Translations under genes and position numbers: made by a program
The notes under the pieces: model-generated
Databases searched by the model: none
Told to the model about the DNA's origin: nothing
Seen by the model: only the letters and a program-made list of their open reading frames with translations
DNA from: Collimonas arenae
GTDB taxonomy: Bacteria > Pseudomonadota > Gammaproteobacteria > Burkholderiales > Burkholderiaceae_D
Reading direction: 5' to 3'
Assembly (NCBI RefSeq): GCF_001584165.1
Contig: NZ_CP013233.1
Location: 1,550,001 to 1,614,000 of the forward strand
DNA length: 64,000 nt
Shown here: positions 1 to 12,484 of the stretch, piece after piece
How positions within the stretch are numbered: position 1 is the first letter of the stretch
Layout: every line of letters starts with the position of its first letter

Positions 1-473
1 CGCAGCCGCTGTTCCAGACCTTCACTCGTTTCCGCACAGTGCAATCCGACGAAGAGGCATTGCAGATGCTGGCAACCCCGCGCCCAACTGAGCTGATCGT
101 CGAAGCAATAAAGGGGCAGCCACTGCCGCCCATATCCGACACCGATAACGATCCTCGCGCCATCAGTTTTGCCATCCTGACCCGGCAGCCGACTTTCTAC
201 GCATTCGATGTCGATGCCAGCCGGCCTGGATGGCTGTTCCTGGCGGACGCCAATTATCCCGGCTGGCGCGCCACTGTGGATGGCCGGGCAGTGCCGGTAT
301 TCAGCGCCCAGCTGCTGGGCAAGGCAGTGGCGATCCCGGTTGGCAAGCACAAGGTTGAACTGTATTTTTCATCATCGACTTTCCGTTACGGCTTGCTTTT
401 GTCCCTGCTGTCGCTGGTGATTGCGGTGGCCGTGCTGCTGCGACCTTTTCTTGGGCGGCGAGGAGAGGATTGA
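1..473 (+). CDS. C-terminal end of a YfhO-like membrane protein (partial)
   Basis: The frame is open from base 3 to the stop at 471-473, so the start lies outside the window and only about 156 codons are visible. The visible part contains a small beta-rich domain with the segment NYPGWRATVDG, which is characteristic of the C-terminal region of YfhO-type polytopic membrane proteins, followed by one hydrophobic segment (about the last 35 residues) and a short basic tail ending RRGED. YfhO-type proteins are linked to glycosylation of cell-envelope polymers; this is family knowledge, not something the fragment proves. The next genes on the same strand are glycosyltransferase-like, which agrees with a role in surface glycan or lipid modification. 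Confidence 0.6.
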   Translation, partial: QPLFQTFTRFRTVQSDEEALQMLATPRPTELIVEAIKGQPLPPISDTDNDPRAISFAILTRQPTFYAFDVDASRPGWLFLADANYPGWRATVDGRAVPVFSAQLLGKAVAIPVGKHKVELYFSSSTFRYGLLLSLLSLVIAVAVLLRPFLGRRGED

Positions 474-705
474 GGCCGTGTTCGATCCGCGGCAGGCGCG
501 TAGAAGATAAGGTGATAACGAAACCGGCTTGATTGGTCGGATACTGCTTGACCGGATGTACCTGATCGATAAAACTCCCGAAGTTGGCCCGTCGATTGGC
601 TGATTAAATCAACGGATGCATCGCAAAATGGGTTATTCAATGTTTTTCAAATAAGATCCGCGAGGTCTGATGAAGAATCAATGATTTGAAAGTTGGGAGT
701 ATCTG

Positions 706-2276
706 GTGGCAAGAAAATTACCGATCTGGGTCTTCATCGCCACTGCATTGGTCTTTTATTTGGGCGCTTATTTGCAGCACCCCGCGCTGCCGGGCAACAA
801 TCTGACTTACCCGGAAGGGTGGTGGGGATGGTTCGATCAAGGTGAATATCTTAAAGCGACCAAAGCATTCTTTTCCCTGAATTTTGATCCTGCAAATCAT
901 CGTTATCCTCCGCTCTATCCGTTGCTTGGAGCGATCTTCTATAAATGGTGGCCCAACCATCCCTATTTTTTCGTCAACGGCGCGGCACTCCTGTGGTTTG
1001 TTTTTGTGTACGCGCGCATCGCGGACCGTTATGTTCCGCGCGTTGCGTCCTTCGCCTTGCTGACGCTTTCCCTGTTCTGCAACCGCGAAATACTTGCAAA
1101 TTTTGTGGTCCCTTGGACCACGGCTGTTACCGCTGCAGTTTATGCATTTGCCTTGTACGGGTTGATGAAACTGTCGGATGCCGGCGAAGCCGATAACAAG
1201 CATGATGGACAGCGGGCATGGATGGCTTTCGTTTACGCGGCAGTCGTTAGCTTGCTGGCCCTGGCGCGGCCGATTGATTCGGCCTTGGTTGCCGTCTTTT
1301 TCCCAGCCTACCTTTACGTTGGTTATCGGGGCGCCAGTGGCGCGCCATTGAAGCAACGCCTTCGCCGCATCGCGTTCATGGCAGTAGGTCTTGGGTTTGG
1401 TTTTTTGATTGGCATCCTGCTGTATTTGATTTTCAATCAGATCGTGTACGGCGCCTTCCTGGGTGGATATTTCCAGGCTACCGCATCCGCGAGCGGATAT
1501 TTCCCGTCGCAGTTGTTCCGTAAAATATTTTCGCTGGTGTTTGATGGCGGCACTGTTTTTCTTGAACAAAGAAGCGGCTTGATTTCGCATTATCCCTGGT
1601 TGATATTTTCAATCCTGGGAATGTGCTGGTGTTTTTCCGTGGCGATTGGCTGCTGCGAACCATCGTGTTGGCGATTGTTTTTCAGTTTTGTCTCTATGCT
1701 CCTTATGGAGACCTCCTGCCGAATGGGCTTTGGCGTTACCACAATGTGCATTATTTCAAATGGGCATTTCCGTACCTGGCCCTGTTGGCCTGGCTGGTGG
1801 TGAGTTGGGTGTTCTCGGGTTCGTGGGCGGCCAACGCCAAAAAGTGGATGTTAAAATCCGGGGTCGTGGCCGCAGGCACGGTTTTGCTGCTGATGCCGCG
1901 CTATGAGGTACATTCGGCGCCTGGCGACATTCAGTTGGCAAGTGCAAGTCCCGGCATTCCTGATGTTGGGTTTCAACTTCGATTTGCGCCAAGCCGAATT
2001 GACTTCATTGATTTTTCCGGGCTTTCCGGTGGATTTGCCGAGGTCTACTTCGGCGAGCATCGGGTTTGGTATGAAGGGAAGGAACTGCAGAAGGTACGAG
2101 ATTTTCGGCTTTTGCCAGCGCCATGGGGAGTTCGCCTTTTATTTAATCGTCCCATCAACACGGACCAGCTTGTGTTTGCGCCCGGGGCGGGTGTGGCGGA
2201 AGGTGCCGGCGGAGTATCGATCAAGATCAGCAGCTATGCATTTCATCTAGGTCGCCCGCGGTTGTTCCATGATTAA
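706..2276 (+). pseudogene. GT-C type polytopic membrane glycosyltransferase, frameshifted
   Basis: A GTG start at 706 follows a GGGAG ribosome site. The protein reads through many membrane segments and carries the early motif WFDQGEYLKA and HRYPPLYPLLGA, typical of dolichyl-phosphate-mannose type (GT-C/GT39-like) transferases that use a lipid-linked sugar at the membrane. Sensible coding stops near 1621 and resumes in the next frame, which runs to 2276. Adding one T to the T5 run at 1631-1635 joins the two parts as CWCFFRGDWLLR. The gene is therefore either disrupted or carries a sequencing error. The family call is moderate because no catalytic residues can be proved by eye. It lies upstream of a GT2 gene and gtrA, the usual partners in sugar transfer across the inner membrane. 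Confidence 0.6.
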
Positions 2277-2347
2277 TTTGCGAAATTAGCTTACATAAGC
2301 TGAGAAAAAAGCCACTGAGCTTAGAGATAAAAACGGGACTATGAAAC

Positions 2348-3313
2348 ATGCTGAAAAATGAAGCGGTAGAGAAAAATGTCGCAGTTATCCTGCCGGCTTA
2401 TAACGAAGAATTGACGATTGAGGGCACGATCCGAGCCTTCCGTGAGGCATTGCCGGAAGCCGCCATCTACGTCATCAACAACAATTCCCGCGATCGCACC
2501 GGCGCCATTGCGAGCCAGGTCCTGCAGGAACTGGCCTGCCAAGGCGGGATTATCGATGAAAACCGGCAGGGCAAGGGCAGCGCGCTCAGGCGTGCATTTA
2601 TCGACATCAATGCGGATATTTATGTGCTGGCCGATGCCGATCTGACTTATCCGGCAGACCAGGCGCGTGAACTGATGGAGCCGGTGCTGCAGGGCCACGC
2701 CGACATGGTGGTCGGCGATCGCCAGTCCGGCGGCGACTACGCGCGCGAGAATCAACGCTCGTTTCACGGTTTCGGCAACGGCCTGGTGCAATGGATGGTG
2801 AATAAGCTGTTCCGCGCCAAGCTGGTCGATATCATGAGCGGCTATCGGGTTTTCAGCCGCGATTTCGTCAAGACCTATCCGGTGCTGGCCGAAGGATTCC
2901 AGATCGAAACCGACATGACGCTGCATGCACTGCACAAGCGCATGCGTATTGTCGAAATTCCGGTTGCCTACAAGGATCGCCCGAGCGGCAGCGTTTCCAA
3001 GCTCAACACCTTTTCCGACGGCACCCGGGTGCTGTTTGCGATTGCCCAGATTTTCCGCTATTACCGGCCGCTGGCTTTTTTCAGCGTGTTGAGCCTGGTG
3101 TTGCTGTTGCTGGGTTTGTTGGCTGGGGCGCCGGTATTCGATGACTGGATCCAGTATCGATTCATTTATCATGTGCCGCTGGCGATCCTGGCCACCGGCA
3201 TGTGTGTGGCGGCGGTGATGGCTTTGGGTATCGGCTTGGTCCTCGATTCGGTCGCGCACCAGCAGCGCATGGAGTTTGAGTTGCGCTGGCTGGCCCGTTC
3301 GGAACGCCGATGA
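2348..3313 (+). CDS. Glycosyltransferase family 2 (polyprenyl-phosphate sugar transferase type)
   Basis: The 321-residue protein begins with the GT2 nucleotide-sugar fold: ILPAYNEE near residue 14, NNNSRDRTG near residue 51, and the metal-binding DAD of LADADLTYPA near residue 97. Further on, MSGYRVFSRDFV is typical of dolichol-phosphate mannose synthase and GtrB/DPM1-like enzymes. Two hydrophobic segments close the protein (about residues 239-260 and 275-300). Such enzymes load a sugar from a nucleotide donor onto a polyprenyl-phosphate carrier on the cytoplasmic side. It overlaps gtrA by four bases (ATGA at 3310), which indicates translational coupling with a probable flippase. The acceptor and the sugar cannot be deduced. 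Confidence 0.88.
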   Translation: MLKNEAVEKNVAVILPAYNEELTIEGTIRAFREALPEAAIYVINNNSRDRTGAIASQVLQELACQGGIIDENRQGKGSALRRAFIDINADIYVLADADLTYPADQARELMEPVLQGHADMVVGDRQSGGDYARENQRSFHGFGNGLVQWMVNKLFRAKLVDIMSGYRVFSRDFVKTYPVLAEGFQIETDMTLHALHKRMRIVEIPVAYKDRPSGSVSKLNTFSDGTRVLFAIAQIFRYYRPLAFFSVLSLVLLLLGLLAGAPVFDDWIQYRFIYHVPLAILATGMCVAAVMALGIGLVLDSVAHQQRMEFELRWLARSERR

Positions 3314-3750
3314 CTCCTGGCTTTCTGAAAAACATCCGCTGGCTGCCGGCCAGTGCGTTCGGCTTCGTGGTGGTAGGCGGCATTGGCTTCGTGGTCGATG
3401 CCTGCCTGATGATGGTGTTCTACAAGTACGCCGGTTTGCCGCTTTACCTGTCGCGGATACTATCTTTCCTGGTCGCGGTGTTCGTCACCTGGCTGTTGAA
3501 CCGCAGCTTCGTGTTCGTCACGACAGCAACAACACGCGCTCCGGTGCGTGCCAAGCGGGAATACGCAGGCTATCTCGCCGTGCAGACCGCCGGCGCCTTG
3601 TTAAACCTGGGGATATTTTCTGCCTTGATCGCTTGTTTTCCCGTATTGCATGCCTATCCGGTCGTCGCTTTGATGGCCGGTTCGGGAACGGCGATGGTAT
3701 TCAACTACCTGAGTTTACGGCGCTGGGTATACCCACATCACGACAACTGA
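3310..3750 (+). CDS. GtrA family membrane protein
   Basis: This small protein of 146 residues has four predicted membrane segments, with the family features FGFVVVGGIGFVVDA at the start and FVTWLLNRSFVF in the middle. GtrA proteins are thought to flip polyprenyl-phosphate-linked sugars across the inner membrane or to help such enzymes. The start codon overlaps the stop of the preceding family 2 glycosyltransferase by four bases, so the two are very probably translated together. The closing segment, YLSLRRWVYP-like, is usual for the family. It is the last gene of the glycosylation block; the next gene is on the opposite strand. Confidence 0.88.
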   Translation: MTPGFLKNIRWLPASAFGFVVVGGIGFVVDACLMMVFYKYAGLPLYLSRILSFLVAVFVTWLLNRSFVFVTTATTRAPVRAKREYAGYLAVQTAGALLNLGIFSALIACFPVLHAYPVVALMAGSGTAMVFNYLSLRRWVYPHHDN

Positions 3751-3778
3751 CGGTCGGCCGCCGCCGTATCTACAACGA

Positions 3779-4729
3779 TTATTTCGCAGCCGCCAGACGC
3801 CGCCGGTCCAACGGCTTCAGGTCGGCCTCCATATGCGCTGCCAGGTAATCGATGAAGACCCGCATCTTGGGTGCCAAATAACGTGTTGGCAGATATTGTA
3901 TAAAGGCAGTCCCCTGATAGGCCGCAACAAATTCCCATTCGGTCAGCACGGCCCGCACCAAACCTTGTTCCAGCGGAGCGCGGGCGATGAAATAGGGCAG
4001 GCAGCCAATTCCCAGGTTTTGCAACACACCTTCCAGCCGCGCCTCGCTGTGATTGACGACGTAGCGTCCGCGCACCTTGATGATGGTTGATTCGCCTTGG
4101 CGCAGGAAGCGCCAGTCGGAATCGCCCGGCGTTTCGCCCAGGTACAGGCAACTGTGTCCGCACAGGTCTTGTGGTTCTTTCGGTGTGCCATGCTGCGCCA
4201 GATAGCTGGGGGTGGCGCACAGAACTTGATCGATTGACATCAATGGCCGGGCCACCAGGCCGTCGGCCGGCTGGCCGGTGATGCGGATCACCAGGTCGGC
4301 ATCGTCGTTGATCAGGTCGACATGGCGGTCGGTCAATATCAATTGCACATCGACTTCCGGATATTTCGCCAGAAAGCCGGGGATCAGCGGCGTCACCACC
4401 GATTTACCGAACGCCTTCGGCATGCCAACCCGCAGCAAGCCTTGCGGGATCGCCACGAACTTGTCCGCCACTTCCATCGCCGCCCTGGCGGCGCCCACCA
4501 TTTCCAGGCAGCGCTGGTAAGCCTCACTGCCGGATTCGCTCAGGCGTAGCTTGCGGGTGGTACGCTCAAGCAGCCTTACCGAGAGCGCCTGCTCCAGCCG
4601 GGATACCTGGCGGCTGACCGCCGAGGGCGTCATGCCCAGTTCAAGCGCGGCAGCCGAAAAACTCCCGGTTTCCACTACTCGTACAAAAATCGCCATATCC
4701 GGCATCAGCTTGATGTATCGATTAGCCAT
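3779..4729 (-). CDS. LysR family transcriptional regulator
   Basis: The 316-residue protein starts with the LysR winged helix-turn-helix: FVRVVETGSFSAAALELGMTPSAVSRQ at about residues 15-41, followed by the RTTRKLRLSESG wing. The remainder is the periplasmic-binding-like effector domain. It is read away from the ArgG-like/dioxygenase/EamA cassette with a 0.12-0.13-kb gap between the starts, the classic arrangement for a LysR protein that controls its divergent neighbour. The C-terminus ends with a basic RRRLAAAK tail. The effector is unknown; from context an amino acid or amino-acid-derived compound is plausible, but this is inference. Confidence 0.9.
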   Translation of the reverse strand: MANRYIKLMPDMAIFVRVVETGSFSAAALELGMTPSAVSRQVSRLEQALSVRLLERTTRKLRLSESGSEAYQRCLEMVGAARAAMEVADKFVAIPQGLLRVGMPKAFGKSVVTPLIPGFLAKYPEVDVQLILTDRHVDLINDDADLVIRITGQPADGLVARPLMSIDQVLCATPSYLAQHGTPKEPQDLCGHSCLYLGETPGDSDWRFLRQGESTIIKVRGRYVVNHSEARLEGVLQNLGIGCLPYFIARAPLEQGLVRAVLTEWEFVAAYQGTAFIQYLPTRYLAPKMRVFIDYLAAHMEADLKPLDRRRLAAAK

Positions 4730-4762
4730 TTATTCCCACTGAGCACAAGTGTTGTTCTGAAT

Positions 4763-4775
4763 CGATAGATTATCG
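4763..4775. promoter_or_regulatory. Candidate LysR operator palindrome
   Basis: The divergent intergenic region contains CGATA-GAT-TATCG, a perfect 5-bp inverted repeat with a 3-bp centre, about 35 bases from the LysR start. Its position fits a LysR autoregulatory site. It is short and AT-rich sequence surrounds it, so chance is possible. Confidence 0.25.
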
Positions 4776-4864
4776 TAATCGGCAGAATAAAACATAATAA
4801 GTTACACGAAGAAATATTTTTCGATTAATGAATACTATCTCGTATTTGCATGCCCGGAGCGCCC

Positions 4865-6103
4865 ATGATTCAGCCGCTAAAAAGAATACGCAGCATTGAC
4901 GATCTGAAAAGTGTCGCCAGTCGCAGTGAGCACGTCCTGACTTTGTTCAGCGGGGGATTGGATAGTACCTATGCATTGAAAAGCCTAGTCGACAGCGGTT
5001 GCCGGGTGACTGCACTGACTGTCGATTTGGGCGAGGGAGTCAATGTCGCCGACCTGCAGCAGATCACTGCGCACTTCGGCGCAGAACTGTTGGTGATTGA
5101 CGGTCAGCAGGCATTTGCCGAAGACGCCGTATTACCGGCGATCCGCGCCAATGCCCGCTACATGGGGATCTATCCGATCAGTTCGTCGCTGTCGCGGCCA
5201 ATCATTGCCCGCTTCGCAGTCGAGACGGCGAAGCGCCTGGACTGTAATGCCATCGTCCACACCGCCAATCAATCGCAGAACAGCCTGCGTCGCCTGAACG
5301 GCGCGATTGCGCAACTTGGTTATGTCGGCTATTACGGGACACCGTATGAATACACGGCGATTTCGCGCGAAGAAAAAATTGAAGCATTGCGTGCGGCCGG
5401 TTTGCCGCATTTCCAGGCGCGCGGTATCAGTGGCGACGCCAACCTGTGGTGCCGCGAGTTCGAGTCGGGCTCGCTCGACAATCCGGAATCGTTCTGGGTA
5501 CCGGAATCGTTGTTCGACTGGACATCGGCACCCGATCCGGGTCTGGCTAGTGTCGACCTGTCGGTGTCTTTCGATGGTGGCCGTCCAGTGGCGATTGACG
5601 GCGAAGCACTGCCGCTGGTCGAACTGATTGCCCGCTTGAACCGGCGCGTCGGCGCCTTCGGCATCGGCCGTTATTGTGGTCTGGAACATCTGGAGCAGGG
5701 CGAGAAAGTATTGGAAGTGCGCGAAGCGCCGGCCGCCATGGCCCTGCTGGAAGCCTATCGCCATCTGGAAACCGCAGTGCTGGACGCGGAACTGCTGCGC
5801 GAAAAATTGCGGATGGAGCAGCTTTGGGTGCGCGAAGCGATTGAGGGGCGCTGGTTTACGCCGCTGCGCGTGGCGACCGATCGCTTCATCGTCGAAACCG
5901 CACAATACGTAACCGGCACCGTCAATTATCGCCTGCGCGCCGGCGCCGCCGACGTCTGCGCAATCAAGGCTGCGGCGCCGCTGTACCTGACCGATCGCGA
6001 CAGCTGGGAAAAAGACATAGCGGCGCAGCGTTCCAGTCGTCAATTGTCGTTCACGTCGAATCCGCTGATCGATGTGAAAAAGATGCTGGCCGAGGAAAAT
6101 TAA
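4865..6103 (+). CDS. Argininosuccinate-synthase-like ATP-dependent ligase, divergent
   Basis: Start at the ATG at 4865, which has GGAG five bases upstream; an in-frame ATG at 4850 has no ribosome site. The 412-residue protein aligns along its length with argininosuccinate synthase: SGGLDS ATP-pyrophosphatase loop (residues 29-34), YPISSSLSRP where ArgG has YPLGTALARP, NLWCREFESGSLDNP where ArgG has NLWGRSIEGGVLEDP, and VTGTVNYRLRAG near the end. However, the ArgG motif TGKGNDQVR, which binds aspartate and citrulline, is replaced by TANQSQNSL (residues 133-141). ATP activation is therefore likely retained while the substrates probably differ. The stop is directly followed by the dioxygenase start, so they form an operon. 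It is unlikely to be the housekeeping argG. Confidence 0.85.
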   Translation: MIQPLKRIRSIDDLKSVASRSEHVLTLFSGGLDSTYALKSLVDSGCRVTALTVDLGEGVNVADLQQITAHFGAELLVIDGQQAFAEDAVLPAIRANARYMGIYPISSSLSRPIIARFAVETAKRLDCNAIVHTANQSQNSLRRLNGAIAQLGYVGYYGTPYEYTAISREEKIEALRAAGLPHFQARGISGDANLWCREFESGSLDNPESFWVPESLFDWTSAPDPGLASVDLSVSFDGGRPVAIDGEALPLVELIARLNRRVGAFGIGRYCGLEHLEQGEKVLEVREAPAAMALLEAYRHLETAVLDAELLREKLRMEQLWVREAIEGRWFTPLRVATDRFIVETAQYVTGTVNYRLRAGAADVCAIKAAAPLYLTDRDSWEKDIAAQRSSRQLSFTSNPLIDVKKMLAEEN

Positions 6104-6853
6104 ATGGAAATCGATGCCTTGGCGCCGATCAAGCTGGCGCCGCCCATCATTGATCATCTGAGCAGCGAGGTTGAGGCACGCTTGTTCAGTGTGCTGTCCG
6201 GCAGGGCGTTGCAGGCCGCTTGCGATGTCGACCCCGCAACCTGGGACGAATTTGCCGCATGCTGGAATAATCTGCCTCAAGATCGCTACATGGGCGACAA
6301 CGGCAGCTATCGTTTCCGCCGCTACGGCGCATTCGAGCTGGACCATGCCGAAGGCGTGCTGCACCAGTTACCGCATGGCCCTTATCAGCAACCCGGTTAT
6401 ATCAATAAACTGAACGGCGATGTGGCGCGCCACTTCGAGCCGCTGGAACGGCATTTTGTCGAAAGCCCGTTTTTGTCCGGCCTTCTGCTGTCGCTGGCCC
6501 AGGTGTTCGACCAGGTGCAGGGGCGGGGCGGAAGATGGAATATCCGTCTGCATCCGTACCGGATCCGCGCCAGTGCCCACACCCCCGGTAATCCGACGCC
6601 TGAAGGCCTACACCGGGATGGTGTCGACTACATCGTCACCATGATGGTGCGTCGGCATAACGTGCTTGGCGGGGAAACCTATATCACCGATGTCGCCGGC
6701 AAGCTGATGTGCCGTTACACCTTGACGGACCCGATGGACCTGATGCTGGCCGACGACGCCAGGACCATGCACGGCGTCACCAAGGTACTGCCGCTGGAGC
6801 CGAAGCGCGAAGCCTTCCGTGACGTGCTGGTGATTGCCTATACGCGAACCTGA
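6104..6853 (+). CDS. 2-oxoglutarate/Fe(II) dioxygenase, PF10014 (amino acid hydroxylase) type
   Basis: The ATG directly follows the stop of the ArgG-like gene, with a GAGGAAAAT ribosome site inside that gene. The 249-residue protein has the jelly-roll iron site of the family: H170-R-D172 in GLHRDGVDYI and H223 in TMHGVTKV, with an arginine further on (R235 or R239) to hold 2-oxoglutarate. Also typical is VRRHNVLGGETYITD. Members of this family include isoleucine dioxygenase and related enzymes that hydroxylate free L-amino acids. The substrate cannot be read from the sequence. The tandem with a ligase and an EamA exporter suggests that it makes or modifies an amino-acid-type small molecule which is then exported. 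Confidence 0.85.
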   Translation: MEIDALAPIKLAPPIIDHLSSEVEARLFSVLSGRALQAACDVDPATWDEFAACWNNLPQDRYMGDNGSYRFRRYGAFELDHAEGVLHQLPHGPYQQPGYINKLNGDVARHFEPLERHFVESPFLSGLLLSLAQVFDQVQGRGGRWNIRLHPYRIRASAHTPGNPTPEGLHRDGVDYIVTMMVRRHNVLGGETYITDVAGKLMCRYTLTDPMDLMLADDARTMHGVTKVLPLEPKREAFRDVLVIAYTRT

Positions 6854-6979
6854 TCGAGATTCATTCCTGACCCCATATCCTCGGTGCTCCCGCCGTTTGT
6901 TCCGTTCTGTAATCCCCGTGGGCGGAACCTTTTTTATACCAAATGATAGTGCTGTGAGCGCTATCAGGAGTGAAGCGAA

Positions 6980-7960
6980 GTGACGAAATCATTCACCAAC
7001 TCATCTGTAAAAAGCCTGTGGGTCGCCGACCTGCTGCTGTTGCTGGTAGCCATCGTCTGGGGAACCAGCTATGGCGTCGCCAAGGAAGCGTTGGCGTATT
7101 ACCCGGTGATGGGTTTCCTGGCGATTCGTTTCTGCATGACTTTCTTGCTGCTGCTTCCCACCTTGCACCAGCTGGCAAGGCCGGAAGGGCGCGCCGCGCT
7201 GCGCGCCGGACTGCCGCTGGGATTGATCTTGCTTGCCATATTGATTTGCGAAACCTTTGGCGTGGCGTTGACGCGGGCATCCAACGCCGCTTTCCTGATC
7301 AGCTTGTGCGTGGTGTTTACGCCGTTTGTTGAGTGGCTCGTGATGCGGCAGCGTCCGGGCGGCAGCGCCTTTCTGGTTGCTTTCGTCTCGCTGTTCGGTA
7401 CCTGGCTGCTGACTTCCGGCAGTAACCTGACTTTCAACCTCGGCGACGGCCTGATGGTGGCAGCGGCGTTACTGCGGGCCTTGATGGTGTGCATGACAAA
7501 GCGCCTGACGCTCGACAAGAACATGGCGACGCTGACGCTGACAGCAGTGCAGTCGGGGGTGGTAGGAATCGGCAGCCTGATCGTCGCCGGCGTATTCGCG
7601 CAAGGCGGTTTGCCGCCGCTTCCGACGGATTCCGATTTTTGGTTCGGGACGATTTATCTGGTGCTGTTTTGCACGATCTTCGCTTTTTTTGCGCAGAACT
7701 ATGGCGTCCGGCGGACCAACCCCACACGGGTTTCTCTGCTGATGGGAAGCGAACCGGTATTCGGTGCGCTGTTTGCTGCGCTGTGGCTGGGCGAGAAGCT
7801 CAGCACCATGTCCTGGATTGGTGGCGCGCTGATTGTCGGCGCCACGCTGTGGGCGACTTTGCCGCGAACCTTATTCAGTCTGAGCTGGATTGTTGCGGCA
7901 CGCGACATCAAGCCGGAGAACAGCCCGATTGTTGGCGCCGGCATTGATCCCGGCCAGTAA
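6980..7960 (+). CDS. EamA/DMT family exporter (RhtA-like)
   Basis: A GTG start at 6980 lies ten bases after AGGAG. The 326-residue protein has about ten membrane segments in two EamA halves. The first half opens with LLLLVAIVWGTSYGVAKEAL and the second contains SLLMGSEPVFGALFAALWLGEKL, the best conserved EamA signature. EamA proteins of this size export amino acids and similar metabolites or, less often, import sugars. The gene follows the dioxygenase after 126 bases, in which GTTCCG...CGGAAC before six T could form a weak attenuating hairpin. An exporter beside a PF10014 dioxygenase recalls the hilABC operon of Pantoea, where hilC is RhtA-like (recalled, not checked). Confidence 0.85.
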   Translation: MTKSFTNSSVKSLWVADLLLLLVAIVWGTSYGVAKEALAYYPVMGFLAIRFCMTFLLLLPTLHQLARPEGRAALRAGLPLGLILLAILICETFGVALTRASNAAFLISLCVVFTPFVEWLVMRQRPGGSAFLVAFVSLFGTWLLTSGSNLTFNLGDGLMVAAALLRALMVCMTKRLTLDKNMATLTLTAVQSGVVGIGSLIVAGVFAQGGLPPLPTDSDFWFGTIYLVLFCTIFAFFAQNYGVRRTNPTRVSLLMGSEPVFGALFAALWLGEKLSTMSWIGGALIVGATLWATLPRTLFSLSWIVAARDIKPENSPIVGAGIDPGQ

Positions 7961-8464
7961 AGCAGGATTCAGGCGCCGCAACAGGCTGAATCGCTTATGT
8001 AATGAAACATGTAGATCGATATGAAAAAATATCACGATAAATGATATTGCCATGCGGAAATTATGTCTATATTCTGAATCACAGAGGCAACCGATTTTTG
8101 CTTTAAAGAGATATGAGAAAACATTGATTTTTCAAACGGCAGTCACTCCAAAAGAGCAAAGGGTGCCGTTGTTTATCCTCAAGAGGGAAGCATCATGATT
8201 TGCGTCAGATTCAATTTGATTTCCGCCATTTTGCCGCCATCGTCGTCCGACGAAATTTCCCGCGCCCTGCGCACCACATCTCCTCCCGTCTTCAGGCTCA
8301 GGTAGCGATTACGCTCCGGCCATCCGGTTAGCGGACCGCAAGTCCGTTAATAACTGCGTCACGGCGCGTGACGCAGATTCCAGCGCCAGACCAACCTATG
8401 CACTGTCCATTCAGTGCAGGGCTGCGGCTTCTTTTATCTGTTCCATTCAATAGGAATAAGCGAT
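7961..8464 (+). other. Long leader / intergenic region before the sedolisin gene
   Basis: This 0.5-kb stretch holds no convincing gene. The first part is AT-rich and includes AACGGCA (8135-8141) facing TGCCGTT (8164-8170), a possible weak terminator for the EamA gene. The last part holds two adjacent hairpins described separately. A promoter for the protease is probably within 8000-8200, but I cannot place the boxes with confidence. Confidence 0.4.
8328..8376 (+). promoter_or_regulatory. Tandem hairpins in the sedolisin leader
   Basis: Two stem-loops lie side by side about 90-135 bases before the start codon. The first pairs TTAGCGGAC with GTCCGTTAA (one mismatch, loop CGCAA, 8328-8350). The second pairs CTGCGTCACG with CGTGACGCAG (perfect ten base pairs, loop GCG, 8354-8376). 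Neither is followed by a T-run, so they are not obvious intrinsic terminators. They could be protein-binding operators or an mRNA structure that controls the protease. Confidence 0.45.
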
Positions 8465-10345
8465 ATGAAATCGAAAGTACCAGCAGGAAATTTTGCGATT
8501 CCCCAGGTTTCGGCATTGTCATTAGCGCTGTCCTTGGTGTTTGCCTCCTTGTCCGTCCATGCAGCCGTGGCGGATACCGGCACTTGGGTCGCAACCAAGA
8601 CACAAGCATTCTTGCCGCAAGTGCAGGCTAATCAGAAAAGCCTGGCGGCCGACGCCAGCATAGCAACGCCGGCAGCATCGGCAGTGCAATTGGCGCAGGG
8701 CGAACCAGTCCATGTAACGCTGAGTCTGAATCTGCGCAACGAAGCCAAGCTCGATAAATTCCTGCAAGATCTGCATACGCCGGGCACTGCCTCCTACGGC
8801 AAATTCCTGAAGCCTGCGCAGTTCGCTGCGTTGTATGCGCCGACGGAAAAAGATGTCGCTGCGGTGGTCGCGCACTTGAGCAAGTCTGGTTTCGTCAACA
8901 TCCGGATTGCACCTAACCGTCAACTGGTGTTCGCCGACGGCACTGCCGCCACCGTGCAAACTGCATTCCGTACTTCGCTCAAGCGCTTCCAGCAAGACGG
9001 CCGCAAAGTGTTCGCCAATACCGACGCAGCGCAAGTGCCTGCGGCGCTGGGCAATATCGTCGGTTCGGTGCTCGGACTGCAAAACGTCGCGGTGGCCCAG
9101 ACCCATCATCGCTGGATACCTAACGCGCAGGGTAGCGTGGCGCTGCAAGCCAAGGCCAAGCCAAGCGCAACCCCTATCGCAACGCCGCACAGCCCAGCGC
9201 AGTTCCCCGCAATTTATAACGCCGGCTCGACGCCGACCGCATCCAACACCACGGTCGCCATCATTTCCGAAGGAAATATCGATCCGACGATCAGCGATCT
9301 GGGAACCTTCACTTCGGCCAACGGTTTCGCTACCGTCAACACTTCAGTGGTGCAAACCGGCCCTGCAGGCAGCGATTACAGCGATACGTCTGGCCAGGTC
9401 GAGTGGAATCTGGACAGCCAGACCATCACCGGCACCTCCGGCGGCGCAGTACAGCAGTTGATATTCTACGCATCGCCAGACATGAATTTCAGCAGCATCA
9501 CTGCCTCCTATAACCAGGCAGTCAGCGACAACCTGGCAAAAGTGATCAACGTCTCGCTCGGCGGCTGCGAATCGGATACGCATAGCGACGGCACCCAGGC
9601 CGCTGACGACAATGTGTTCAAGCAAGCCGTGGCGCAAGGACAAACCTTCTCGATCTCGACAGGCGACGCCGGCACCTACAATTGCCAGACCAGCTCGATC
9701 TCCGGCGCGCCAGGCGTACCGAAGAACAAATCCACCTATGATGTCAGCGAGCCTGCCAGCTCGCCATACGTGATCGCTGTCGGCGGTACTACCTTGTACA
9801 CCGCGTCCGGTGCCTACAGCAGCGAAACAGTCTGGAATGAGGGATTGAGCGCGATTGGCGTGTACGATGCCAATGGCGATTCCGATCCGACCAAGCGCTT
9901 GTGGGCAACCGGCGGCGGCTACAGCAAATACGAAGCAGCACCGTCCTATCAGTCGGGCGTAATTGCTGCCGGCAAGACCACCCGTGGCCTGCCGGACATC
10001 GCGTTTGATGCGGCCAGCGCCAGTGGCGCCACCATCTACTACAACGGCCAAACCGGTACAGTGGGCGGCACCAGCCTGGCAGCGCCGATCTTCACCGGCA
10101 CCTGGGCACGTCTGCAATCGGCCAACGGCAATGCGCTGGGCTTCCCGGCAGCCAGCTTCTACAAGTATTTCCCGCTGGCCGCCAATGCCGCGCTGCTGCA
10201 CGACGTGACTTCCGGCACCAATGGCGCCAGCAGCTCGTACGGCTACAAGGCTGCCAAAGGCTGGGACGCAACGACGGGCTTTGGTAGCCTGAACATCGCC
10301 AACCTGAATACCTTCATCCAGAACACATCGGATTTTGCACGTTGA
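8465..10345 (+). CDS. Secreted sedolisin (peptidase family S53)
   Basis: Start at ATG 8465, which follows AGGAATAAG; an upstream in-frame ATG at 8414 would add residues that spoil the signal peptide. The 626-residue precursor has a signal peptide ending near VHAAVA, then a pro-kumamolisin activation domain (roughly residues 50-210, with GTASYGKFLKPAQFAALYAP), then the S53 catalytic domain. The Glu-Asp pair is E313 and D317 in VEWNLD, the oxyanion Asp is in STGDAG, and the catalytic Ser is S537 in GGTSLAAP. These are acid-active serine-carboxyl endopeptidases that self-process and degrade proteins outside the cell. In a soil or fungus-associated bacterium this suggests nutrient acquisition from protein. 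Confidence 0.93.
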   Translation: MKSKVPAGNFAIPQVSALSLALSLVFASLSVHAAVADTGTWVATKTQAFLPQVQANQKSLAADASIATPAASAVQLAQGEPVHVTLSLNLRNEAKLDKFLQDLHTPGTASYGKFLKPAQFAALYAPTEKDVAAVVAHLSKSGFVNIRIAPNRQLVFADGTAATVQTAFRTSLKRFQQDGRKVFANTDAAQVPAALGNIVGSVLGLQNVAVAQTHHRWIPNAQGSVALQAKAKPSATPIATPHSPAQFPAIYNAGSTPTASNTTVAIISEGNIDPTISDLGTFTSANGFATVNTSVVQTGPAGSDYSDTSGQVEWNLDSQTITGTSGGAVQQLIFYASPDMNFSSITASYNQAVSDNLAKVINVSLGGCESDTHSDGTQAADDNVFKQAVAQGQTFSISTGDAGTYNCQTSSISGAPGVPKNKSTYDVSEPASSPYVIAVGGTTLYTASGAYSSETVWNEGLSAIGVYDANGDSDPTKRLWATGGGYSKYEAAPSYQSGVIAAGKTTRGLPDIAFDAASASGATIYYNGQTGTVGGTSLAAPIFTGTWARLQSANGNALGFPAASFYKYFPLAANAALLHDVTSGTNGASSSYGYKAAKGWDATTGFGSLNIANLNTFIQNTSDFAR

Positions 10346-10428
10346 TGATTTGTTTTCTTGATGTAGGGAAGCTCGCTCGGAGGACCAGCCAGGTCTTCCG
10401 GGCGCACATAGTGTTCGGGGAGATGGAG

Positions 10429-10626
10429 ATGAGCAGGTCGAATTTAACCTGGGTTATTACCGCGCTGATCCTGGGCGCCGGTGGCGCTTATGCAGTATGG
10501 CTGATGGATGGGAGTGGAATTGATGCCAGGGCAGCCGTTGTGAATGGCGAGCATGGCGTCCATGACAGCAAGCCCGTAGCAACCAGCCTGCGGCAGGCCG
10601 TCAACATCAATCCCTTCGGGAAATAG
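10429..10626 (+). CDS. Small single-span membrane protein, unknown
   Basis: The ATG at 10429 is preceded by GGGGAGATGGAG; a second in-frame ATG lies at 10423. The 65-residue product begins MSRSNLTWVITALILGAGG, a clear N-terminal membrane segment, followed by a short hydrophilic tail ending NINPFGK. I do not recognise a family. It lies just downstream of the sedolisin gene on the same strand and may be co-transcribed with it. The tail would be periplasmic if the first residues stay inside. Confidence 0.5.
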   Translation: MSRSNLTWVITALILGAGGAYAVWLMDGSGIDARAAVVNGEHGVHDSKPVATSLRQAVNINPFGK

Positions 10627-10695
10627 CAGCATTGCATTTCAGGGTGGATGCCTGCATCGGCAGGAAGCCCTCTATCGTAGAAGGAACAATCAGTT

Positions 10696-10911
10696 ATGAC
10701 CGCATATCTGCAACGACAGGACCGTCTCGCGCTGGTGACGCAGGCTACCGCCAACGTGACCGGAAAGCGCTTTTGTTCGCATCATCAAGGTGAGGTGCCT
10801 GTGGCCGAAGGCGAATTCGTGATACGCAACAAATCCAAGCGCTGGATTTGTTTTCGCTGTCAGGAACGCAGCCGGTTGCGCCGCGACGCACTCGACAAGC
10901 GGCTAGGATAA
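10696..10911 (+). CDS. Small zinc-ribbon-like protein, unknown
   Basis: The 71-residue product begins MTAYLQRQDRLALVTQATANV and contains FCSHHQG and later WICFRCQERSRLRR. The spaced Cys/His pairs (CSHH and CFRC) could hold one zinc ion, and the tail is basic. GTAGAAGGAACA before the ATG at 10696 can act as a ribosome site. No family is recognised. It follows another small gene and the sedolisin on the same strand. It could be a small nucleic-acid-binding protein, but no function is asserted. Confidence 0.5.
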   Translation: MTAYLQRQDRLALVTQATANVTGKRFCSHHQGEVPVAEGEFVIRNKSKRWICFRCQERSRLRRDALDKRLG

Positions 10912-10973
10912 TTGCAGTTCAAGTGCCGACGGCAGCGACTTAAAGTTCCTGCCGATTAGGGCAAGCGGCAAGC

Positions 10974-11375
10974 TCAGCGAAATGCGGCCAGCGGGTCGTA
11001 TCGCGGCTCCGCTCCATCATCTTGGCCTTTCGCAGCCAATCCGGATTTGATGAAATTCACTGATGTGACGCGCCATCCGCCGCGTTGCAGCTTCCAGCCG
11101 TGGATGACCTTCTGCCACCCTGGTTTCTGATACTGCTGGTCGTGCCGATCCAGCTCCCAATGACCCGCTTCCCACACATACCAGCCACCGACATAGTTCC
11201 AGAAACCGGGACTCCACACCATGCCAGCTCGTGGGCTAGGCGTGATTTCGTCCTTGGATGGCGGTGGCGCGCTCCTGAGAACAACGTCGATTTCATCGGG
11301 TTCCTTGAGGGGCGAAGAGATGAAAGTGGAAAACCGTCCGGCTATGATGGCGGCGATGCTGAGTGGATGTTTCAA
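10974..11375 (-). CDS. WXXGXW/YXWGXW repeat protein
   Basis: The 133-residue product contains MVWSPGFWNYVGGWYVWEAG and HWELDRHDQQYQKPGW, the aromatic-glycine repeat typical of the YXWGXW (WXXGXW) repeat family of envelope proteins. The likely start is a TTG at 11373-11375, with GGAG eight bases upstream. The N-terminus (KHPLSIAAIIAGRFS) is only weakly hydrophobic, and the lipobox common in this family is not evident, so either the start or the export signal is degenerate. The function of the family is unknown. It faces the preceding plus-strand genes and is monocistronic. Confidence 0.6.
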   Translation of the reverse strand: MKHPLSIAAIIAGRFSTFISSPLKEPDEIDVVLRSAPPPSKDEITPSPRAGMVWSPGFWNYVGGWYVWEAGHWELDRHDQQYQKPGWQKVIHGWKLQRGGWRVTSVNFIKSGLAAKGQDDGAEPRYDPLAAFR

Positions 11376-11833
11376 TTTGCGCTCCTGAATGTGTTCAGTG
11401 ATATCGATTGTACGAAGCCAGGAGCCCGGAAATGTGTCCCGTGCATTTGCTTACACTTTTCACATTTAACTTACAGGCAGAATCTGCTAAATCGATCGGG
11501 AGGCGGCTATGTGGCGACACGATGGCCCTATGGGGAGGCGGCGCACGAGGCGCGTATTTATAGTCGGCGCGATGAGTGAGGTGGATTGCAAATTAGCCAA
11601 GTAAAGGTGTAGTTCAACGATGAAAATGGAGTATTTCGACTAATTCGGCGGCGCAATATTGCTTGCATGTTACATACTGTATCCGACACTATCATGTGCG
11701 ATTGCCTGCAGTAGCGAAGTGGCCATGCCCTTGGCATGCTGTGAATGCTTTTGCCGTAACGAAAGGCCGATGGAGACTCGGCAGGTTTTCACTGAAAACC
11801 ATGATGAATTTGACGATAAAAGGAGTACATGAG
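11376..11833 (+). other. Intergenic region before the GST gene
   Basis: This 0.46-kb region has no clear gene apart from a short candidate frame at 11509-11604. TTGCTTACACTTTTCACATTT and following AT-rich sequence (11440-11490) may contain a promoter. Nothing else is supported. Confidence 0.3.
11509..11604 (+). CDS. Candidate 31-residue basic peptide
   Basis: A 31-codon frame starts at ATG 11509, preceded by GGGAGGCGGCT, a near-ideal ribosome site. The product is very basic (RRRTRRVFIVG in the middle) and ends CKLAK. It matches no family known to me. The only evidence is the ribosome site and the absence of another gene here, so the call is weak. Confidence 0.2.
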   Translation: MWRHDGPMGRRRTRRVFIVGAMSEVDCKLAK

Positions 11834-12484
11834 ATGGCATCGAATCGCCGGGTCACTTTTTTTCATTCGCCGAACACGCGTTCTGCCGGTGCCCGGATCC
11901 TGCTGGAAGAATTGGGTGCCGACTACGAACTGCATGCGCTCAACATGAAGGCGGGAGAGCAGCGCGGTGCCGCCTACCTGGCGGTCAACCCGATGGGCAA
12001 GGTGCCCGCCATCAAACATGGCGATGCACTGATCACTGAGCAGCCCGCGGTGTTCCTGTATCTTGCCGACCTCTATCAGGACGCAGGTCTGGCGCCGGCC
12101 CTGGACGATCCGCTGCGCGGCCCGTACCTGCGCTGGATGGTGTATTACGGTTCGTGTTTTGAGCCAGCGTTGATCGACCGTGCACTAAAGCATGCGCCGG
12201 CGCCGCCGTCTACGTGTCCTTATGGCGATTTCGATTCAATGTGGAAGACTCTGACCGACCAGCTGGAAAAAGGGCCGTACATTCTGGGGGAGAAATTCAG
12301 TGCCGCCGACGTCCTCTGGGGTACCGCGTTGACGTGGACCACATCCTTCAAGCTGGTGCCTCTGACGCCATTGATCCAAGCCTATATCGGCCGCGTCAAT
12401 GCACGCCCGGCAGCCAAGCGCGTGGCGGCATTGGATGCCGAACTGGCGGCGTTGCATGCCAGTCAGGCTGCAGCCAATGAATGA
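11834..12484 (+). CDS. Glutathione S-transferase family protein
   Basis: Start at ATG 11834, with AGGAG eight bases upstream; more distant in-frame starts lack a ribosome site. The 216-residue protein has the thioredoxin-like N-terminal domain (FFHSPNTRSAGARILLEELG, then the cis-proline segment NPMGKVPAI and TEQPAVFLYLADLY) and an all-helical C-terminal domain with LGEKFSAADVLWGTAL. The Ser near residue 11 is a probable glutathione-activating residue, as in bacterial beta/theta-like GSTs. The enzyme conjugates or reduces small electrophiles in the cytoplasm. The substrate is unknown, and neighbours do not narrow it. Confidence 0.85.
   Translation: MASNRRVTFFHSPNTRSAGARILLEELGADYELHALNMKAGEQRGAAYLAVNPMGKVPAIKHGDALITEQPAVFLYLADLYQDAGLAPALDDPLRGPYLRWMVYYGSCFEPALIDRALKHAPAPPSTCPYGDFDSMWKTLTDQLEKGPYILGEKFSAADVLWGTALTWTTSFKLVPLTPLIQAYIGRVNARPAAKRVAALDAELAALHASQAAANE

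Follow-up and report, generated by a model that had tools for sequence, protein, structure and literature searches.

Collimonas arenae carries, within a stretch of 64,000 nucleotides of contig NZ_CP013233.1 (positions 1,550,001 to 1,614,000, hereafter the window), a cassette of four genes that encode a LysR-family regulator, an ArgG-like protein (argG_rel), a PF10014 dioxygenase, and an EamA transporter. The regulator gene (3779..4729, minus strand; PF00126 and PF03466) is divergent from the enzyme genes. The argG_rel gene (4850..6103, plus strand; PF00764, PF20979, and NF038212), coding for a predicted ATP-dependent amide-to-nitrile synthetase, is followed on the same strand by the gene of a BsmA-like Fe(II)/2-oxoglutarate dioxygenase, a predicted amino-acid hydroxylase (6104..6853; PF10014), and by that of the EamA (DMT) transporter, the predicted product exporter (6980..7960; PF00892, 118.4 bits), in which PF00892 matches two stretches, i.e., two repeats. 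The argG_rel stop codon TAA (6101–6103) directly abuts the dioxygenase start codon ATG (6104), as is also the case in all seven other Collimonas loci that we looked at. A first-pass annotation of the sequence had described this layout, with a divergent LysR gene, the stop–start abutment, and an exporter gene behind it, and all four genes were found where it had placed them. The start of argG_rel may instead be ATG 4865, which by eye stands right behind GGAG and has a matching context in relatives. The closest named relatives of the locus are those of Collimonas.

The ArgG-like protein matched the NCBIfam model NF038212 ("argG_rel", argininosuccinate synthase-related protein) with 612.6 bits (cut-off 425) and stayed below the curated cut-offs for true ArgG (TIGR00032, 217.3 versus 268.2 bits; NF001770, 222.4 versus 334 bits). 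Because the genome holds its own canonical argG elsewhere (G000:C1:1179523-1180743), argG_rel is a second, divergent copy, and the canonical gene and the low scores together rule out an ordinary second argG. Both by sequence (query 5–392) and by predicted fold, its nearest relative in PDB is the nitrile synthetase ArtA (9leh and 9lei), to which it is closer than to argininosuccinate synthase. The residues with which ArtA contacts the amide (Q146, S197, and D199, in a numbering that assumes the PDB chain to be shifted by 29 throughout and that agrees with the entry numbering) are retained as Q143, S194, and D196. In place of the aspartate-site residues Thr119 and Asp124 of argininosuccinate synthase (human numbers), argG_rel has Asn140 and Ser145; the two positions are changed alike in 84 and 87 of 88 relatives, respectively, and the identical replacements are present in ArtA. 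Given that the nearest relative is a nitrile synthetase and that the aspartate-site residues are absent, a dehydrated product (amide to nitrile) is likelier than a ligated one, and the label "ligase" that the first-pass annotation gave to this protein is not supported.

ArtA, an enzyme of auranthine biosynthesis, resembles argG_rel over nearly the full length of the sequence, in predicted fold, in the amide-contact residues, and in the altered aspartate site. It differs in being a fungal enzyme linked to a product of peptide synthetases, according to the accessible text of PMC13060819, while argG_rel has dioxygenase, exporter, and LysR genes as neighbours. Argininosuccinate synthase (ArgG/ASS1) shares the fold, the ATP site, and part of the citrulline site with argG_rel, but its aspartate-site Thr and Asp, Y282, and S189 are all replaced, the last two by Arg and Glu, respectively. 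QueC/ToyM, PesC, and CalN also use ATP to activate an amide or a carboxylate on the way to a nitrile, but in the same text they belong to different families; QueC/ToyM and PesC use a carboxylate, and the ArtA residues are not conserved in PesC (PMC13060819).

The dioxygenase qualifies as a PF10014 Fe(II)/2-oxoglutarate enzyme by its score against the Pfam model (224.4 bits) and by its metal-binding residues and arginine. H170, D172, and H223, the His-X-Asp...His metal triad, and R239, the 2-oxoglutarate-binding Arg, are invariant in all 64 aligned rows that have a letter there. Its nearest relative in PDB is 3pl0 (Methylibium petroleiphilum MpDO, E 3.2e-45), followed by 9dqp; we found no function for either, 3pl0 being listed as uncharacterized in PDB, and a text search of open-licence literature by PDB code found no paper on 9dqp, 9dq0, 8jms, 8w8h, or 9leh. 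According to PMC3684760, the members of PF10014 that have been characterised act on Ile, Leu, and Thr as free amino acids and hydroxylate them at C4. Since the dioxygenase is fused or adjacent to argG_rel, we argue that the two enzymes share a small-molecule substrate. Scanning the surroundings of PF10014 relatives that lack argG_rel gave no common partner.

The parallel to the hil operon drawn in the first-pass annotation holds in part. The Hil operon of Pantoea and Pseudomonas and the IDO operon of Bacillus thuringiensis resemble the cassette in having a LysR regulator, a PF10014 dioxygenase acting on a free amino acid, and, in some bacteria only, an RhtA/EamA-type exporter (PMC3684760, accessible part). 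The parallel is loose in other respects: the Hil core consists of LysR, a solute-binding protein, two dioxygenases, and a dehydrogenase, and the same part of the source describes no ArgG-like enzyme in these operons, which instead contain the dehydrogenase and a second dioxygenase. The window dioxygenase reached 32.4 bits against the HilB equivalog model, far below its cut-off of 350, and HilA, HilC, and HilP are absent from the genes of 3310–10345, which encode GtrA, LysR, argG_rel, the PF10014 enzyme, EamA, and a kumamolisin-like protease.

Among genome contigs, 147 argG_rel relatives were found, the best 80 loci of which were used for the counts, so that the fractions are not a census; one locus (L016), with only a fragment of argG_rel, was treated as a gap, and in another (L023) the dioxygenase is partial. 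A dioxygenase relative is present in 58 of the 80 loci, always downstream on the same strand with the ends of the open reading frames (ORFs) at most 178 bases apart. Dioxygenase and EamA occur together in 55 loci, and all four genes, including the divergent LysR, in 40. An EamA relative accompanies 55 of the 58 dioxygenase-bearing loci, in several phyla, and none of the 22 loci without dioxygenase. The pattern is seen in Collimonas, other Burkholderiales, Vibrio, Marinobacter, a Gloeocapsa, and Streptomyces, with the full quartet in 13 of the 13 Vibrio loci among the 80. Whole-genome searches provided an independent sample: argG_rel exceeded its cut-off in 10 of 15 Collimonas species, in 1 of 199 genomes from a rhizobial-type family, and, at the level of the phylum, in 5 of 398 genomes, of which two are Collimonas; all 13 distinct loci from these searches, two of which are close kin, have the dioxygenase directly downstream and both dioxygenase and EamA within approximately 1.4 kb. 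Around canonical argG genes (approximately 1.4 kb of flank each), a dioxygenase was found in none and an EamA relative in one of 41 loci, and these controls rule out chance neighbours.

Plasmids show the same association. Eight plasmid records contain argG_rel, and the six that are rhizobial all carry the dioxygenase (one as a fusion), with a DMT exporter directly upstream in five; in the other two, a PF10014 relative lies approximately 1.3 kb (Burkholderia cenocepacia) and 0.1 kb (Vibrio halioticoli) from argG_rel. Three loci from the rhizobial branch (L143, L115, and L116) carry argG_rel and the dioxygenase as one reading frame. Evolutionary distances of the neighbours correlate with those of argG_rel (dioxygenase, r = 0.78 over 58 loci; EamA, 0.92; LysR, 0.95; 0 of 999 permutations), a correlation that shared descent alone could produce. 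The earlier proposal of a conserved cassette for biosynthesis and export of an amino-acid-type compound is supported by this recurrence: the gene trio is present in other genomes, and the lack of conservation that would have spoken against the proposal did not appear.

Several loci depart from the standard cassette. An ATP-grasp-like gene, whose Pfam match is below the cut-off, lies directly upstream of argG_rel in 6 and anywhere in the locus in 10 of the 22 loci without dioxygenase. In Streptomyces and Kitasatospora (L051, L053, L059, and L063), argG_rel directly follows the ATP-grasp-like gene and no dioxygenase is present; an M18 aminopeptidase and a thioesterase gene are found nearby in others (L060, L068, L072, L078, and L081). 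Such dioxygenase-less loci perhaps specify nitrile-containing dipeptides. In Salmonella enterica diarizonae (L029 and L152), a three-module peptide synthetase, argG_rel, the dioxygenase, a divergent seryl-tRNA synthetase paralogue, and a phosphopantetheinyl transferase are encoded in a row. The paralogue in L029 is 35% identical to the housekeeping copy and may serve as self-protection against a Ser-like product; the row of genes looks like an unstudied peptide cluster. By position rules, the adenylation-domain codes of the Salmonella diarizonae and Mesorhizobium synthetases look partly Ser-like and Gly-like and do not name the nitrile substrate. In two Burkholderia loci (L015 and L027), the neighbours of argG_rel include an FAA-hydrolase-family gene and an aldehyde dehydrogenase gene, and nothing matched the dioxygenase model. 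A further Collimonas locus (L161:3243-8966, genome G002) contains a second canonical ArgG with ArgH; next to them are genes for EamA, LysR, and an agmatinase-family protein.

Regulator and exporter also occur by themselves. In four of four enzyme-less Collimonas genomes examined, LysR (78–82% identical) and EamA (76–77%) are retained in the same place, 107–277 bases apart, and the same promoter-side sequence now precedes EamA. The enzymes hence constitute a removable block, with EamA under the LysR promoter in these genomes, and the exporter is useful without them, perhaps for tolerance in non-producing sister species. Within the divergent promoter region of the window, the palindrome CGATAGATTATCG (4763..4775) is a possible LysR operator; it has one match in the window at no more than one mismatch versus 0.05 expected, and the form GATAG.TTATCG recurs in four of seven other Collimonas cassette loci and in three of four enzyme-less Collimonas loci.

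Between dioxygenase and EamA lies an element of approximately 100 bases (6875..6980, plus strand), made up of a terminator-like hairpin, a palindrome, and the EamA ribosome-binding site, with which a stretch of the element could pair. It is conserved across eight Collimonas loci (78% mean column identity); of the 28 pairs in its predicted hairpins, only one has a two-sided change, and an Rfam search of 6700–7100 gave no match at E up to 5. A 26-base core occurs once each in 14 of 15 Collimonas genomes; among 150 genomes of the order, no other genus has it. In the four enzyme-less genomes the core lies downstream of EamA, for which reason an EamA leader is too narrow a description; the element may be a small RNA or an attenuator. 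Because this conserved terminator-like element separates the dioxygenase from EamA, the enzymes and EamA may or may not share a transcript. Further downstream, a gene for the kumamolisin-like protease (8414–10345; Pro-kuma_activ and S8 domains) is a conserved neighbour of the locus in Collimonas, and near the start of the window two overlapping ORFs (706–1803 and 1623–2276) resemble, by eye, one membrane protein with a possible frameshift.

We consider it probable, with moderate confidence, that the cassette, under LysR control, yields a small amino acid with a nitrile group through amide-to-nitrile conversion and hydroxylation, and that EamA exports it. By analogy with ArtA and from the residues kept, argG_rel would bind ATP and the side-chain amide of Asn, Gln, or a hydroxylated form and adenylate the amide oxygen, as argininosuccinate synthase does with citrulline; its aspartate site being changed, it would then expel AMP and leave a nitrile. 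The dioxygenase, to judge from its family and the gene fusions, would hydroxylate the same small molecule, either ahead of the nitrile-forming step or following it, EamA would export the product, as synteny suggests, and LysR would control the shared divergent promoter. The product would likely act as an antimetabolite against competitors. What the sequences show is the gene order and how far it is conserved, the fusion, the retained and the lost residues, the predicted fold, and the LysR-EamA pair left over in enzyme-less genomes; the rest of the scheme is proposed. Several observations weigh against this proposal. S194 and D196 occur in five and six, respectively, of six true argininosuccinate synthases, so that Q143 and the loss of the aspartate-site residues are all that discriminates, and the model has pLDDT below 50 in the loop at 195–199 and 205–207. 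All of the proposed chemistry is drawn from homology with one fungal enzyme. The 22 of 80 loci without dioxygenase imply that argG_rel also works without it. The EamA family is common (31 domain matches in this genome), and its retention with LysR in all four enzyme-less Collimonas genomes means that the link between exporter and product is not a strict one. Finally, promoter-like sites (2 versus 2.3 expected) and terminator-like sites (8 versus 5.6 expected, standard deviation 2.3) in 3600–8450 are near chance.

Three other explanations deserve consideration. The one standing closest to the first-pass annotation is that argG_rel keeps argininosuccinate-type chemistry, activating a ureido or amide group and joining it to aspartate or another amine, and that the resulting guanidine- or amidine-type product is hydroxylated and exported. 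This is unlikely given that T119 and D124 are replaced in nearly all 88 relatives and in ArtA; besides, no argininosuccinate lyase gene was noticed beside the window gene, the 80 loci not having been searched for one. We regard it as equally doubtful that the nitrile is a peptide building block rather than a freely exported product, with EamA and LysR as a separate amino-acid efflux unit next door. Peptide synthetase genes beside argG_rel and the dioxygenase in Salmonella enterica diarizonae and Mesorhizobium huakuii, the ATP-grasp-like gene that immediately precedes argG_rel in 6 of the 22 loci without dioxygenase, and the LysR-EamA pair standing alone in four Collimonas genomes speak for a peptide fate, which EamA-less exceptions such as Salmonella diarizonae fit. 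However, no peptide synthetase or ligase gene adjoins the cassette within 1–12000 of the window (ORFs by eye, six scanned), and EamA goes with 55 of 58 dioxygenase-bearing loci in several phyla. Least probable is that the dioxygenase has an unrelated amino acid as its substrate and that the genes have only a regulator in common and yield two products: PF10014 relatives without argG_rel do occur on other plasmids among varied neighbours, but both enzymes form a single chain in the three fusion loci, and they co-diverge over the 58 loci, for which shared descent could suffice.

Within the nitrile amino acid proposal, the substrate may quite possibly be of Asn type and may possibly be of Gln type, while some other type is doubtful. 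The Gln type is favoured by the nitrile of auranthine, which is Gln-derived. Dehydration of Asn by argG_rel would yield beta-cyanoalanine without cyanide. Vibrio is named in a review, in its accessible part, as a maker of beta-cyanoalanine, and all 13 Vibrio loci carry the quartet, making the cassette a candidate source in this genus; the part of PMC8567248 available to us speaks instead of marine cyanobacteria. It is very improbable that the dioxygenase hydroxylates the nitrile-bearing carbon, so that the amino acid becomes a cyanohydrin and gives off hydrogen cyanide; this would be a new, amide-based bacterial cyanide route unrelated to the glycine-based HCN synthase, and C4 hydroxylation of a Gln-derived nitrile would leave aspartate semialdehyde. 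That a nitrile synthetase is paired with a hydroxylase, in some bacteria within a single fused protein, may be compatible with this outcome, while the exporter argues mildly for a stable product.

The ArtA-type reaction has been known since 2025. Nitriles are seldom seen among bacterial compounds that resemble primary metabolites, and they have uses in drugs. We found no published description of this cassette in the open-licence literature of PubMed Central; an ArtA-type enzyme within a bacterial hydroxylase-exporter cassette, and a broad bacterial family of such enzymes, seem to be new. If the proposal is true, a large family labelled only "argininosuccinate synthase-related" would gain a function, and a cyanide-free source of beta-cyanoalanine in Vibrio would be directly testable. 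A compact cassette of two enzymes and one exporter would then be how bacteria of soil, of plants, and of the sea make nitrile amino acids carrying a hydroxyl group. The proposal, if true, also suggests a bacterial cassette as the origin of a fungal enzyme.
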